From NCBI RefSeq assembly GCF_913053745.1, contig NZ_CAJXGF010000011.1, positions 1 to 50,386 of the forward strand: a stretch of 50,386 bases of DNA, read 5' to 3'. Within the stretch, counting starts at the first letter, position 1. Each line of letters opens with the position of its first letter. The position numbers and the translations under genes are program-made. A model generated the notes under the pieces. It worked only from the letters and a program-made list of their open reading frames with translations, did not search any database and had not been told where the DNA came from. Positions 13,110 to 16,598 of the stretch are shown here, in pieces. This stretch comes from an uncultured Nitratireductor sp. Lineage in GTDB: Bacteria; Pseudomonadota; Alphaproteobacteria; Rhizobiales; Rhizobiaceae.

Positions 13110-14099
13110 TTACATACTGTCGGGATGGGTGCTGTCGACGTTCTTCAGGTAGGACAAGACGGTGACATGCGTGGTGGCGGCAGTCAGCACGGCGATGACG
13201 ATGACGATTGCGCCGACCCCGATATAACCCGATGGGCCTATTGCGAAATTGCCGAACAGGGCCGTCGCCTGATCCGCTTCGGGCGTTGCCATGTTGCGGG
13301 ACGACCACCAATAGAATCCGATAAAAACCAGGATTGCACCGATTCCGCCCGCGGCGGCGCCCTTCATGCCGGCAAGCAGGAAGTGTCGACGGAACTGGGA
13401 TGCGATAAAGGGTGCTTCCGCGCCAACGAAATGCAACACTTCGATGATGTGGCCATTGCCGGCCATGGCCCCGCGTGTGGCGAAAATGACGGTCAGCGCT
13501 GTGGCCGAAAGCATCAGCGCAAGCGCTGACATTCCGATGGTTACCGTGGTCCGTGCCATGGCAACCAGCCGATCGACCCAGGTGCGGTGATCGTCCAGTG
13601 TCGCGTTGGCGACAGTCTCTTCGAGCTCGGCGCGCATGGCCGCAAAATCGGGCCGTGACATCGGGTCGATGGTGACGATCACGAGACGAGGGACGGGCAG
13701 GCTTTCGATGTCGAGGCCGGTGCCGAGCCATGGCTCCAGAAGACGCGCGGTGGCCTGCGCATCGACAACGCTGGCGTCGATAACGCCGCTATAGCCGGCG
13801 GCTATGTCACGCGCCCGGGTGAGGGCAGCCGCCATGTCGAGCCCTTCCTCGGGCTTGATCTGGATGGTCGCTTCTCGGGCGATTTGCGTTTGCCAGGTTG
13901 CGGCCGTATCGCGCACCAGCGTTACCGCGCCCAGTGTCAGGCAGGAAAGGAAGGTCATGATCGCGATGACCAGCACCATGGCGCGACCGGCCACATTGTC
14001 CGGCGGGACGATTGGCATCTGCTTTCGCGCTACCGCGCCCCGTGCGCTGGAACTCAGGCGGGCACCAAGATTCTTCAGGAGGCGGGTGGTCTCAGTCAT
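13110..14099 (-). CDS. ftsX: Cell-division ABC transporter permease FtsX
   Basis: A 329-residue FtsX-type permease with the four expected membrane segments: one near 40-60 after a basic cytoplasmic tail, a large periplasmic loop (about 62-180), then three C-terminal segments (about 195-220, 240-265 and 295-315). FtsEX couples ATP hydrolysis to septal peptidoglycan hydrolase activation. Its ATG overlaps the end of ftsE by 8 bases (ATGACTGA), so the two are translationally coupled. Sequence identity in this family is low, but the architecture and partner gene settle it. Confidence 0.92.
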   Translation of the reverse strand: MTETTRLLKNLGARLSSSARGAVARKQMPIVPPDNVAGRAMVLVIAIMTFLSCLTLGAVTLVRDTAATWQTQIAREATIQIKPEEGLDMAAALTRARDIAAGYSGVIDASVVDAQATARLLEPWLGTGLDIESLPVPRLVIVTIDPMSRPDFAAMRAELEETVANATLDDHRTWVDRLVAMARTTVTIGMSALALMLSATALTVIFATRGAMAGNGHIIEVLHFVGAEAPFIASQFRRHFLLAGMKGAAAGGIGAILVFIGFYWWSSRNMATPEADQATALFGNFAIGPSGYIGVGAIVIVIAVLTAATTHVTVLSYLKNVDSTHPDSM

Positions 14100-14751
14100 A
14101 GATTTCCAACCTCCCGCCCGACAGCACCATGCGGCGCGCATCCACCTGATCCATCAAGCCGAGATCGTGGGTGGCGATGACGACCGCGGTGCCAAGCCGA
14201 TTCAATTCGAGCAGCAATCGAAGCAGGCGGCGGGCGAGTTGCGGATCGACATTGCCGGTCGGTTCGTCGGCGAGCAGGATGCGCGGCTGTTCGATCAGTG
14301 CACGGGCTATGGCGGCACGCTGTTTCTCGCCGCCTGAAAGGATCGGCGGTAGCACATGCATGCGCTCGCCTAGGCCCACCCACTTCAAAAGCTCGATCAC
14401 GTCGCCGCGATAAGTGGATTCCTCGCGGCCGCGCACGCGCAAGGGAAGGGCCACGTTCTCGTAAGTGGTAAGGTGATCGAGCAGGCGGAAATCCTGAAAT
14501 ACGACGCCGATGTTGCGTCGTAGCAGCGGTAGCTCCGTGCGGGTGATCTTGGAACGATCCTTGCCGAAAATGGTGATGAGACCGCGTGTGGGTTTCAGCG
14601 ACATGAAAAGCAGGCGCAGGAGCGTCGTCTTGCCGGCCCCCGATGGACCGCTCAGGAATTGGAACGACCTTTCCGGCAAGTGGAAAGAGACATCGCGGAG
14701 GATCTCCGGACCCATCCCATATCTATGGCCGACATTTTCAAATCGAATCAC
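14092..14751 (-). CDS. ftsE: Cell-division ATP-binding protein FtsE
   Basis: A 219-residue ABC ATPase. Walker A GPSGAGKT is at 35-42, the Q-loop at VVFQDFRLL (83-91), the signature LSGGEKQ at 138-144 and Walker B ILLADEP at 158-164, followed by the H-loop ATHDL (about 191-195). I chose the GTG that yields MIRFENVGHRYG, the usual FtsE start; a longer in-frame ATG start adds 20 unconserved residues. The upstream region carries a CtrA-type box 70 bases from the start, suggesting cell-cycle control. Confidence 0.93.
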   Translation of the reverse strand: MIRFENVGHRYGMGPEILRDVSFHLPERSFQFLSGPSGAGKTTLLRLLFMSLKPTRGLITIFGKDRSKITRTELPLLRRNIGVVFQDFRLLDHLTTYENVALPLRVRGREESTYRGDVIELLKWVGLGERMHVLPPILSGGEKQRAAIARALIEQPRILLADEPTGNVDPQLARRLLRLLLELNRLGTAVVIATHDLGLMDQVDARRMVLSGGRLEIYD

Positions 14752-14820
14752 GAGGAACCTGCGTTCTGTGAGTGGCGGACGCTGCCTGGACGCATTCTGC
14801 CAGACCATCAACCCGCATGG

Positions 14821-14836
14821 TTAATAGCAAGTTAAC
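14821..14836. promoter_or_regulatory. CtrA binding box (TTAA-N7-TTAAC)
   Basis: TTAATAGCAAGTTAAC fits the CtrA consensus TTAA-N7-TTAAC exactly. It lies between divergent ftsE (70 bases away) and the membrane protein gene at 14920 (83 bases away). A second half-site TTAACCAT (14866-14873) forms, with ATGGTTAAT at 14817-14825, a perfect 9-bp inverted repeat. CtrA is the master cell-cycle response regulator of alphaproteobacteria. Binding is inferred. Confidence 0.7.
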
Positions 14837-14919
14837 TCCTGCTTGATAGGCGTGATGTCGAAGCATTAACCATTTCCATTTACCTCGGAAAGGCGGATCA
14901 CGAAAGGACAGTCTGCCGC

Positions 14920-15552
14920 ATGAGGCACTCCGACAACGCACGCCTGGTTTCGGGCGAAATCATGATGCCGGACGGGAAGGACGGTGCGCCGCGCCGGGGC
15001 GCGGTTTCGCATGATGCGATCGATGTGGAATTCGAAACGATTGGTCCGGCGGAAGAGGCGGATGCCGGTCCGTGCTCCGCATTTCTGGGTGGCGGTGCCG
15101 TCTCGGGGCTCGACCTGCTGAAGCCAGGCGGGCGGACGCAAGGCAAGAAGCCTGCTCGCGCGGGGCCGCTTTTCTGGGTGTTCGGCGTGACTCTCATCGC
15201 CGGTGCTTTCTGGGTTTCCGGCGGTCACAGCCTTGTGGGCGCGACGGATAGGCACGCACGCGACACGCCGTTTCAGATTCTGCGCCTTGTGGATGTGACA
15301 TCGCGGGTGGAGCGGCAGGGTTCGAACGCCGTGCTTGTCGTCGACGGTACGGCGCTCAACAGTGGCGGAAAAAGCGTTGCTTTGCCCTCCATCTCTATCA
15401 ATGTCTTGACAGAAAACGGCTCGACAACGCGATATTTTTTGGGGACAACCGGTCAGCACCTCGGCCCCGGAGCGCGCTTTCCCTTCTCCAGCAGGCTCGT
15501 CGCGCCTAGGGAAGGGGTCAAGTCCGTCTCTGTGACGTTTCGTTCGTCGTAG
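14920..15552 (+). CDS. Single-pass membrane protein of unknown function (DUF3426/FxLYD-like C-terminus)
   Basis: A 210-residue protein I do not firmly recognise. Residues 1-80 are polar and probably disordered, rich in Asp, Gly and Pro. A membrane segment lies near 87-107 (WVFGVTLIAGAFWV). The outside part (about 115-210) is beta-rich, with ALNSGGKSVALPSISINVL (about 148-166), the look of a DUF3426/FxLYD fold. Genes at this position upstream of hpt in relatives often encode an N-terminal zinc ribbon; here there are no paired cysteines (only one Cys), so the ribbon is absent. ATG follows AAAGGA by about 11 bases. It shares its promoter region and a CtrA box with ftsE. Confidence 0.65.
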   Translation: MRHSDNARLVSGEIMMPDGKDGAPRRGAVSHDAIDVEFETIGPAEEADAGPCSAFLGGGAVSGLDLLKPGGRTQGKKPARAGPLFWVFGVTLIAGAFWVSGGHSLVGATDRHARDTPFQILRLVDVTSRVERQGSNAVLVVDGTALNSGGKSVALPSISINVLTENGSTTRYFLGTTGQHLGPGARFPFSSRLVAPREGVKSVSVTFRSS

Positions 15553-15618
15553 ATCATCTCGTTTATGCGGGTCCGGGAGAAAAGATCTCCGGAGCCGCCC
15601 TGACAGGAGTCGCCGCCC

Positions 15619-16161
15619 ATGCCTGTTGTCCGTGGCAAGGAGATCGAGGTTTTGTTTTCGGCCTCGACCATCGCCAGGCGCAATCTGGAACTCGCCAAGG
15701 ATATCGCTTCGCGCGAGTATGACGACCTCCTGGTCATTTCCGTTCTCAAGGGATCGTTCATTTTTGCCGCCGATCTGATCCGCGCCATGCATGATGTCGG
15801 TATCTCGCCGGAAGTGGAGTTCATCATGATTTCCAGCTATGGCAGCGGTACGGAAAGTGGGGAGATCAAGGTGTTGCGCGATATCGACAACGACGTGACC
15901 GGTCGCGACGTTCTCTTGATTGACGACATCCTGGAATCGGGCAAGACACTGAAGCACACCCGCACACTGATGCTTTCACGCGGTGCGAAGTCGGTTTCCA
16001 TCGCCGTTCTGCTCGACAAGCATTCGCGCAGGCAAACCGAGGTCGATGCCGATTTTGTGGGTTTCGAGTGTCCCGATTATTTCGTTGTCGGGTATGGAAT
16101 GGATGTGGCCCACGCTTTTCGCGAACTGCCCTTCGTCGGCGTCGTCAAGGACGATGCTTGA
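15619..16161 (+). CDS. hpt: Hypoxanthine phosphoribosyltransferase
   Basis: A 180-residue purine-salvage enzyme converting hypoxanthine (and usually guanine) with PRPP to the nucleotide. Marks are ISVLKGSFIF (40-49), the acidic-loop region YGSGTESGEIKVLRDID (74-90) and the PRPP-binding loop VLLIDDILESGKT (98-110), with the base-binding VGFECPDYFVVGYGMD near the C-terminus. It lies 66 bases after the membrane protein gene and 71 bases before cpdR, an order seen in other Hyphomicrobiales. Confidence 0.95.
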   Translation: MPVVRGKEIEVLFSASTIARRNLELAKDIASREYDDLLVISVLKGSFIFAADLIRAMHDVGISPEVEFIMISSYGSGTESGEIKVLRDIDNDVTGRDVLLIDDILESGKTLKHTRTLMLSRGAKSVSIAVLLDKHSRRQTEVDADFVGFECPDYFVVGYGMDVAHAFRELPFVGVVKDDA

Positions 16162-16232: not shown

Positions 16233-16598
16233 ATGGCTAAGCTTCTGATCGTTGAAGACGACGACTCCGTACGTAATTTTACCGCCCGCGCGCTGAGTGC
16301 AGCCGGTCACACCGTGGAAACCGCGGCTGATGGGCTGGAAGGACTTGAGAAGATCAATGCCACGGCTGGCGATTACGATCTGGTTCTGTCGGATATTCGC
16401 ATGCCGGCAATGGACGGCATCGAGATGGCGCGCGCCGTGGCCGAAGCTTTTCCCGGGTTGCGGCTTCTCTTGATGACCGGTTATGCGGATCAGCGCGAGC
16501 GCGCGGCGGAACTTGAGGGCACTGTTTCGGGTGTTGTGAACAAGCCATTCACGCTAAGTGAGCTTCGCGAACGGATTGGCCAGGCGCTCGCAGCTTGA
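16233..16598 (+). CDS. cpdR: Single-domain response regulator, CpdR-like
   Basis: A 121-residue stand-alone receiver domain. The acidic pocket (EDDD, 8-11), the phospho-acceptor Asp54 in LSDIRMP, the conserved Thr in LLLMTGYA (about 84) and Lys in NKPFTLSEL (about 107) are all present. There is no output domain. CpdR in Caulobacter and rhizobia receives phosphate from the CckA-ChpT relay and, when unphosphorylated, directs ClpXP to degrade CtrA and other cell-cycle proteins. Position next to hpt and length support CpdR rather than another single-domain regulator. A CtrA box lies 1.4 kb upstream at ftsE. Confidence 0.8.
   Translation: MAKLLIVEDDDSVRNFTARALSAAGHTVETAADGLEGLEKINATAGDYDLVLSDIRMPAMDGIEMARAVAEAFPGLRLLLMTGYADQRERAAELEGTVSGVVNKPFTLSELRERIGQALAA

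Follow-up and report, generated by a model that had tools for sequence, protein, structure and literature searches.

The ftsEX locus and its divergent neighbour

The window, that is, the whole stretch of 50,386 bases analysed here, is contig 11 of a 4.63 Mb genome in 267 contigs. By FtsE the closest named relative is Nitratireductor soli (96%), in a search that may omit the genome's own records. The features of interest surround a short intergenic region from which ftsE and an opposing gene, hereafter Z, are read in opposite directions:

13110–14099, minus strand: ftsX, overlapping the end of ftsE; assigned by position and by a weak TIGR00439 match (56.5 bits, below the cut-off of 255)
14092–14751, minus strand: ftsE, GTG start at 14751; NCBIfam TIGR02673 (FtsE) 281.3 bits, cut-off 264.85
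14817–14835, minus strand: predicted CtrA box A, TTAA-N7-TTAACCAT, spanning positions −84 to −66 relative to the ftsE start; in relatives the spacer is variable and the CATG extension conserved
14820–14836, both strands: the 16-mer core as dyad GTTAA-N7-TTAAC; the dyad is present in this genus
14866–14873, plus strand: half-site of element B, TTAACCAT, facing the divergent gene
14879–14884, plus strand: TTTACC, the other conserved box of element B, with TTTAC at an offset of 13 bases from the start of TTAACCA; conserved across 52 thinned loci
14920–15552, plus strand: divergent gene Z; one membrane helix, a C-terminal DUF3426-type beta domain and no zinc ribbon; probable positional counterpart of a ZitP-type gene
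15619–16161, plus strand: hpt, hypoxanthine phosphoribosyltransferase, a syntenic neighbour; TIGR01203 175.5 bits, cut-off 150
16233–16598, plus strand: single-domain response regulator, probably a CpdR paralogue

A direct check of the sequence places TTAATAGCAAGTTAAC at 14821–14836, where the preliminary description had reported an exact TTAA-N7-TTAAC match. It is the only occurrence of TTAA-N7-TTAA in the window, for which shuffling predicts 0.03 occurrences of TTAA-N7-TTAAC. The geometry given at that stage was equally accurate: the GTG of ftsE at 14751 and the ATG at 14920 enclose an intergenic region of 168 bases, and 70 bases separate the 16-mer from the ftsE start. The 16-mer forms a dyad, GTTAA-N7-TTAAC, and therefore matches on both strands; once the flank is included, the minus strand matches better, as TTAACTTGCTATTAACCAT running from 14835 to 14817 towards ftsE and reading TTAA-N7-TTAACCAT. 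The plus-strand reading was rejected as the main orientation of box A because the conserved CATG lies on the ftsE side. Many other loci carry the 11-base direct repeat without the dyad.

Scans for sigma-70-like promoters and terminators between 14700 and 14960, and an Rfam search of 14000–16000, gave no matches. A GAATC, a GANTC-type site, lies at 14745–14749 and takes in the final base of the ftsE GTG; between the two divergent start codons of the window there is no GANTC.

Conservation of box A among relatives

For comparison, 130 ftsE upstream regions from related Alphaproteobacteria were gathered (the window, 29 loci of relatives, 80 named loci and 20 fetched stretches); removal of five repeats left 125 distinct regions, and six with a misplaced start were dropped, so that 119 were usable. 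TTAA-N7-TTAAC occurs within 200 bases of the ftsE start in 48 of these 119, on the ftsE strand in 39 of the 48, against a mean of 0.14 and a maximum of 1 in 300 rounds of dinucleotide shuffling. When the spacing was varied from 0 to 20, spacing 7 gave the 48 regions and the next best, spacing 9, gave 10; seven other AT words at spacing 7 gave none in the same 119 regions. After thinning to regions less than 70% identical the pattern persists in 38 of 104.

Within the 32 thinned ftsE-strand sites the search pattern dictates the half-sites, and the information lies in the CATG extension that follows TTAAC (94, 88, 91 and 69%) and in a C directly behind the first TTAA (81%); no other spacer base exceeds 53%. 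For the longer form TTAA-N7-TTAACCA the count is 35 on the ftsE strand in the 200 bases next to the start, and zero, with both strands counted, over the 47,600 bases beyond. Both the site and this pattern of conservation are matters of direct observation.

The full site is present in all nine other genomes of the genus that were searched (two of them identical in the region). Among 26 other genera of the family, one lacked an FtsE match; of the remaining 25, eight carry the exact full site and 17 do not, while 18 carry either the full site or the half-site of element B and seven carry neither. Within 250 bases, TTAA-N7-TTAAC was found in 6/24 genomes from the rest of the order and in 1/40 of a wider class sample, made up of 39 genomes from other orders and one from this order. 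Box A is patchy across the order.

Element B and the assignment of the two elements

Facing the other way, the half-site of element B falls within the interval singled out by the preliminary description, which did not name it. Of 108 loci whose upstream sequence was long enough, 72 contributed a TTAACCA oriented towards the divergent gene to an alignment. TTAACCA was itself the selection criterion of this alignment, in whose 52 thinned copies TT at −11/−10 is conserved at 67% and 85% and TTTAC at +13 to +17 at 69–87%. The TTTAC box lies outside the CtrA half-site as known and is not known to match any promoter part. As a motif of a wide regulon element B was rejected, TTAACCA-N6-TTTAC having two matches in the genome, the window copy included, and a stricter form one.

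The occurrence of element B was compared with the room available for the gene it faces. With hpt starting no more than 480 bases from ftsE, which leaves little room for a divergent gene, B occurs in none of 13 loci; where there is room, it occurs in 71 of 85. Ten loci without an hpt match, two of them with B, were set aside, and the counts are not independent, as the genomes are related. Within 250 bases, B towards the divergent gene was found in 6/8 distinct regions of the genus and 14/25 other genera of the family, compared with 3/24 in the rest of the order and 2/40 in the class sample. It occurs chiefly in the family; three named loci of Bosea type (L131, L132 and L134) carry it as well, and one genome of the same genus (L028) is without it.

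An additional stretch of about 385 bases separates the two elements in N. soli (L055, the same region as L033), where A keeps a distance of 85 bases to ftsE and B one of 55 bases to the start of the divergent gene. This addition, located between roughly 75 and 500 bases upstream of ftsE, contains inverted CCTCGGG...CCCGAGG stretches and leaves A and B intact; it looks like a small palindromic insertion.

It could be argued that box A mainly serves the divergent gene at 14920, or that one CtrA dimer bound to the dyad acts on both genes, since the dyad matches both strands and lies between two divergently read genes. This reading keeps some weight but is unlikely: the conserved CATG extension is on the ftsE side, the extra bases of N. 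soli part the divergent gene from A and not from B, and in Bartonella apihabitans (L080), where the hpt start is so close to ftsE (238 bases) that a divergent gene does not fit, the full ftsE-facing site stays and B is absent. Judging from these arrangements, A is evidently the element of ftsE and B that of the divergent gene, which would have in B a separate CtrA-like element of its own.

Seven Rhizobium-type loci (L066, L068, L069, L071, L072, L075 and L076) show another arrangement: a site one base off A, TTTA-N7-TTAAC, together with a TTAACCA-N6-TTAAC pair about 40–57 bases from ftsE. The offset within this pair is 13 bases, the same as in element B.

CtrA and its pattern elsewhere in the genome

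The genome encodes CtrA (NCBIfam 421.6 bits, cut-off 350). In the whole genome of 4.63 Mb, TTAA-N7-TTAAC occupies 16 places, with 12 matches on each strand, and the reversed control pattern has 7 + 8 = 15 strand matches. This excess of 24 over 15 is small, so that a single match alone would be modest evidence, and the case for box A rests on its conservation in relatives. Some of the 16 places could be named, and the same pattern was observed at other CtrA-type targets, upstream of rcdA (200.4 bits, cut-off 170), rpoD (434.6 bits, below the full-protein cut-off of 555, in a frame cut by the locus boundary), ftsK and a flagellin gene. In a Pfam scan of ten neighbours of genome sites, five gave no match, possibly because of wrong frames. 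The rcdA gene (G000:C25, L015), an expected CtrA target, has two upstream TTAA-N7-TTAA sites 149 bases apart.

The preliminary description had also placed a CpdR-like protein governing CtrA turnover 1.4 kb away. That identification does not survive comparison with the CpdR model (NCBIfam NF046022, cut-off 180): the product of 16233–16598 scores 98 bits, and the best gene of the genome, G000:C65:2052-2411, scores 207 (208 in a second scan). Because of this difference, the response regulator in the window is more likely a CpdR paralogue. Of the 80 named loci, 55 have a relative of it in the 3 kb preceding ftsE.

Predicted control of ftsEX by CtrA

The proposal of a CtrA-type box positioned for ftsEX gained support from its presence in the nine other genomes of the genus and in eight of the 25 other family genera, and from a genome that encodes CtrA. 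Very probably the 16-mer is the core of a CtrA site, TTAA-N7-TTAACCAT from 14835 to 14817, that would place ftsEX under CtrA. Bound as a dimer to the two TTAA half-sites, which lie at an interval of 11 bases and 66–84 bases upstream of ftsE, CtrA would alter ftsEX transcription during the cell cycle. CtrA binding at box A and the sign of its effect are what we infer from the sequence.

Control of ftsE by CtrA is already known in relatives and is not new in kind; the novelty initially attached to the site was overstated. For Brucella abortus, of the same order, binding of CtrA at the promoter of ftsE is reported (earlier work cited in PMC2877005 and PMC3616915), and a CtrA motif has been identified upstream of ftsE in S. 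meliloti (PMC3616915). Binding was tested in B. abortus, whereas the Nitratireductor site is known from its sequence and conservation. The S. meliloti motif (PMC3616915) and the predicted ftsE site of A. tumefaciens (PMC7003649) concern the same gene and the same class of motif, although the three Agrobacterium loci and nine of 11 Rhizobium-titled loci in our set are without an exact full site on the ftsE side. It should be added that the main text of the S. meliloti CtrA ChIP-seq paper does not mention ftsE (PMC4433202). TTAACCAT serves as a CtrA motif in PMC11527210, and minCD is a topic of PMC5900048.

Box A resembles the TTAA-N7-TTAA full sites of Caulobacter, where half-sites lie near −35 or −10 (PMC4287350). 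Full sites in that organism are mostly at −35 (PMC4287350), which tips the balance here somewhat towards activation from such a position and away from repression. Repression of ftsE by CtrA is nevertheless possible, since in an A. tumefaciens pdhS2 mutant ftsE, which has a predicted CtrA site, was up (log2 1.63), and two other promoters rose once their CtrA site was mutated (PMC7003649). In Caulobacter, ftsE is a moderate GcrA candidate (PMC7987155) and is down without CcrM (PMC3973325).

A different regulator of the cell cycle, such as SciP or MucR, might bind the site instead of CtrA. Both act on CtrA-activated genes, and 47% of published SciP ChIP-seq peaks contain a TTAACAT motif (PMC4287350); the motif given for SciP in the same source is GCGNC, against TTAA-N7-TTAA for CtrA, and the preference for spacing 7 in our regions also makes this substitution clearly improbable. 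A functionless chance match, which the modest genome-wide excess (24 against 15) might suggest, is very unlikely in view of the conservation counts (48 of the 119 regions carry the pattern, where shuffling gives 0.14 on average) and of a spacer that has diverged beside a conserved extension. CtrA control of ftsEX through box A is the best-supported reading.

The divergent gene as a probable counterpart of ZitP

The product of the gene at 14920 has no Pfam match at 0.001; an FxLYD match falls below its cut-off, as does the comparison with DUF3426 (14.9 bits, cut-off 27.7). A low-confidence structure model of the protein (mean pLDDT 52.8) contains a helix at 84–94 and strands over 121–208, and a PDB fold search with this model returned weak beta-domain matches, for example ApaG, two of them with E < 0.001. 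A profile built from 14 rhizobial Z proteins matches one built from ten zinc-ribbon proteins (probability 98.5, E 3.7e-15), the match covering 94 C-terminal columns.

The zinc-ribbon proteins themselves are frequent at this position outside the family. PF13717 was found in none of the 36 genomes of the window's family among the 60 genomes searched and in 18 of the 24 other genomes of the order; 17 of these 18 copies lie 141–373 bases from the ftsE start. In outgroups, a zinc ribbon stands opposite ftsE in 32 of 40 fetched regions, drawn mostly from the top of the 91 genomes (of 115) with an FtsE match. The gene in the window is very probably the counterpart of this zinc-ribbon/DUF3426 gene so often found opposite ftsE in Alphaproteobacteria.

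PDB chain 2nb9 we infer to be the zinc ribbon of ZitP (CCNA_02298 of Caulobacter), a polarity protein of the cell pole. At E 1e-15 only one of 389 genomes matched it, through a frame of 309 residues whose ribbon is 75% identical. In this closest homologue the ribbon begins 105 bases from the ftsE start on the opposite strand, a GANTC lies in between, and an hpt-like gene (37%) follows downstream. Z likewise diverges from ftsE with hpt downstream, and it shares with ZitP (PMC5182063, PMC5182065) a membrane helix followed by a DUF3426-type domain, the latter recognised mainly through the profile comparison. It differs in lacking the N-terminal CXXC-X19-CXXC zinc ribbon; CXXC is absent from all 43 script-predicted Z products, a few of which may have wrong frames or starts. 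A further difference concerns regulation: in Caulobacter zitP is promoted by GcrA and requires CcrM (PMC5182063), and the intergenic region of the window has no GANTC. From synteny and the profile comparison, therefore, the window gene is probably a counterpart of ZitP without the zinc ribbon.

A DUF2497 gene, DUF2497 being presumably the PopZ family, is present in the window's genome and in 35 of the 36 genomes of the family, and the zinc ribbon would therefore have been lost without loss of PopZ. On a tentative and broader view, held with somewhat less than even confidence, Z would be the rhizobial ZitP. The gene would have lost the PopZ-binding ribbon in the common ancestor of the family, retained the membrane anchor and the periplasmic DUF3426-type domain, and been brought under CtrA through element B, and the divergent ftsE/zitP promoter would thus be a division and polarity hub taken over by CtrA in this family. 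The DUF3426 domain of ZitP has been linked to the recruitment of CpaM and to CtrA-dependent transcription (PMC5182063). Among the papers covered by a literature search, none has zitP together with ftsE.

Significance for the family

Box A extends ftsE as a known CtrA target to a Nitratireductor-type genome and maps the presence and absence of the site within the family. The neighbouring gene matters more than the box, and it is here that the locus offers a new lead. Rhizobiales are stated to encode no ZitP, and how their PopZ stays at one pole is described as unknown (PMC5182065). If Z is the rhizobial ZitP, the published statement that Rhizobiales are without an orthologue would be contradicted; as a probable ZitP counterpart free of the zinc ribbon, at a conserved and possibly CtrA-linked locus, Z is a named candidate.
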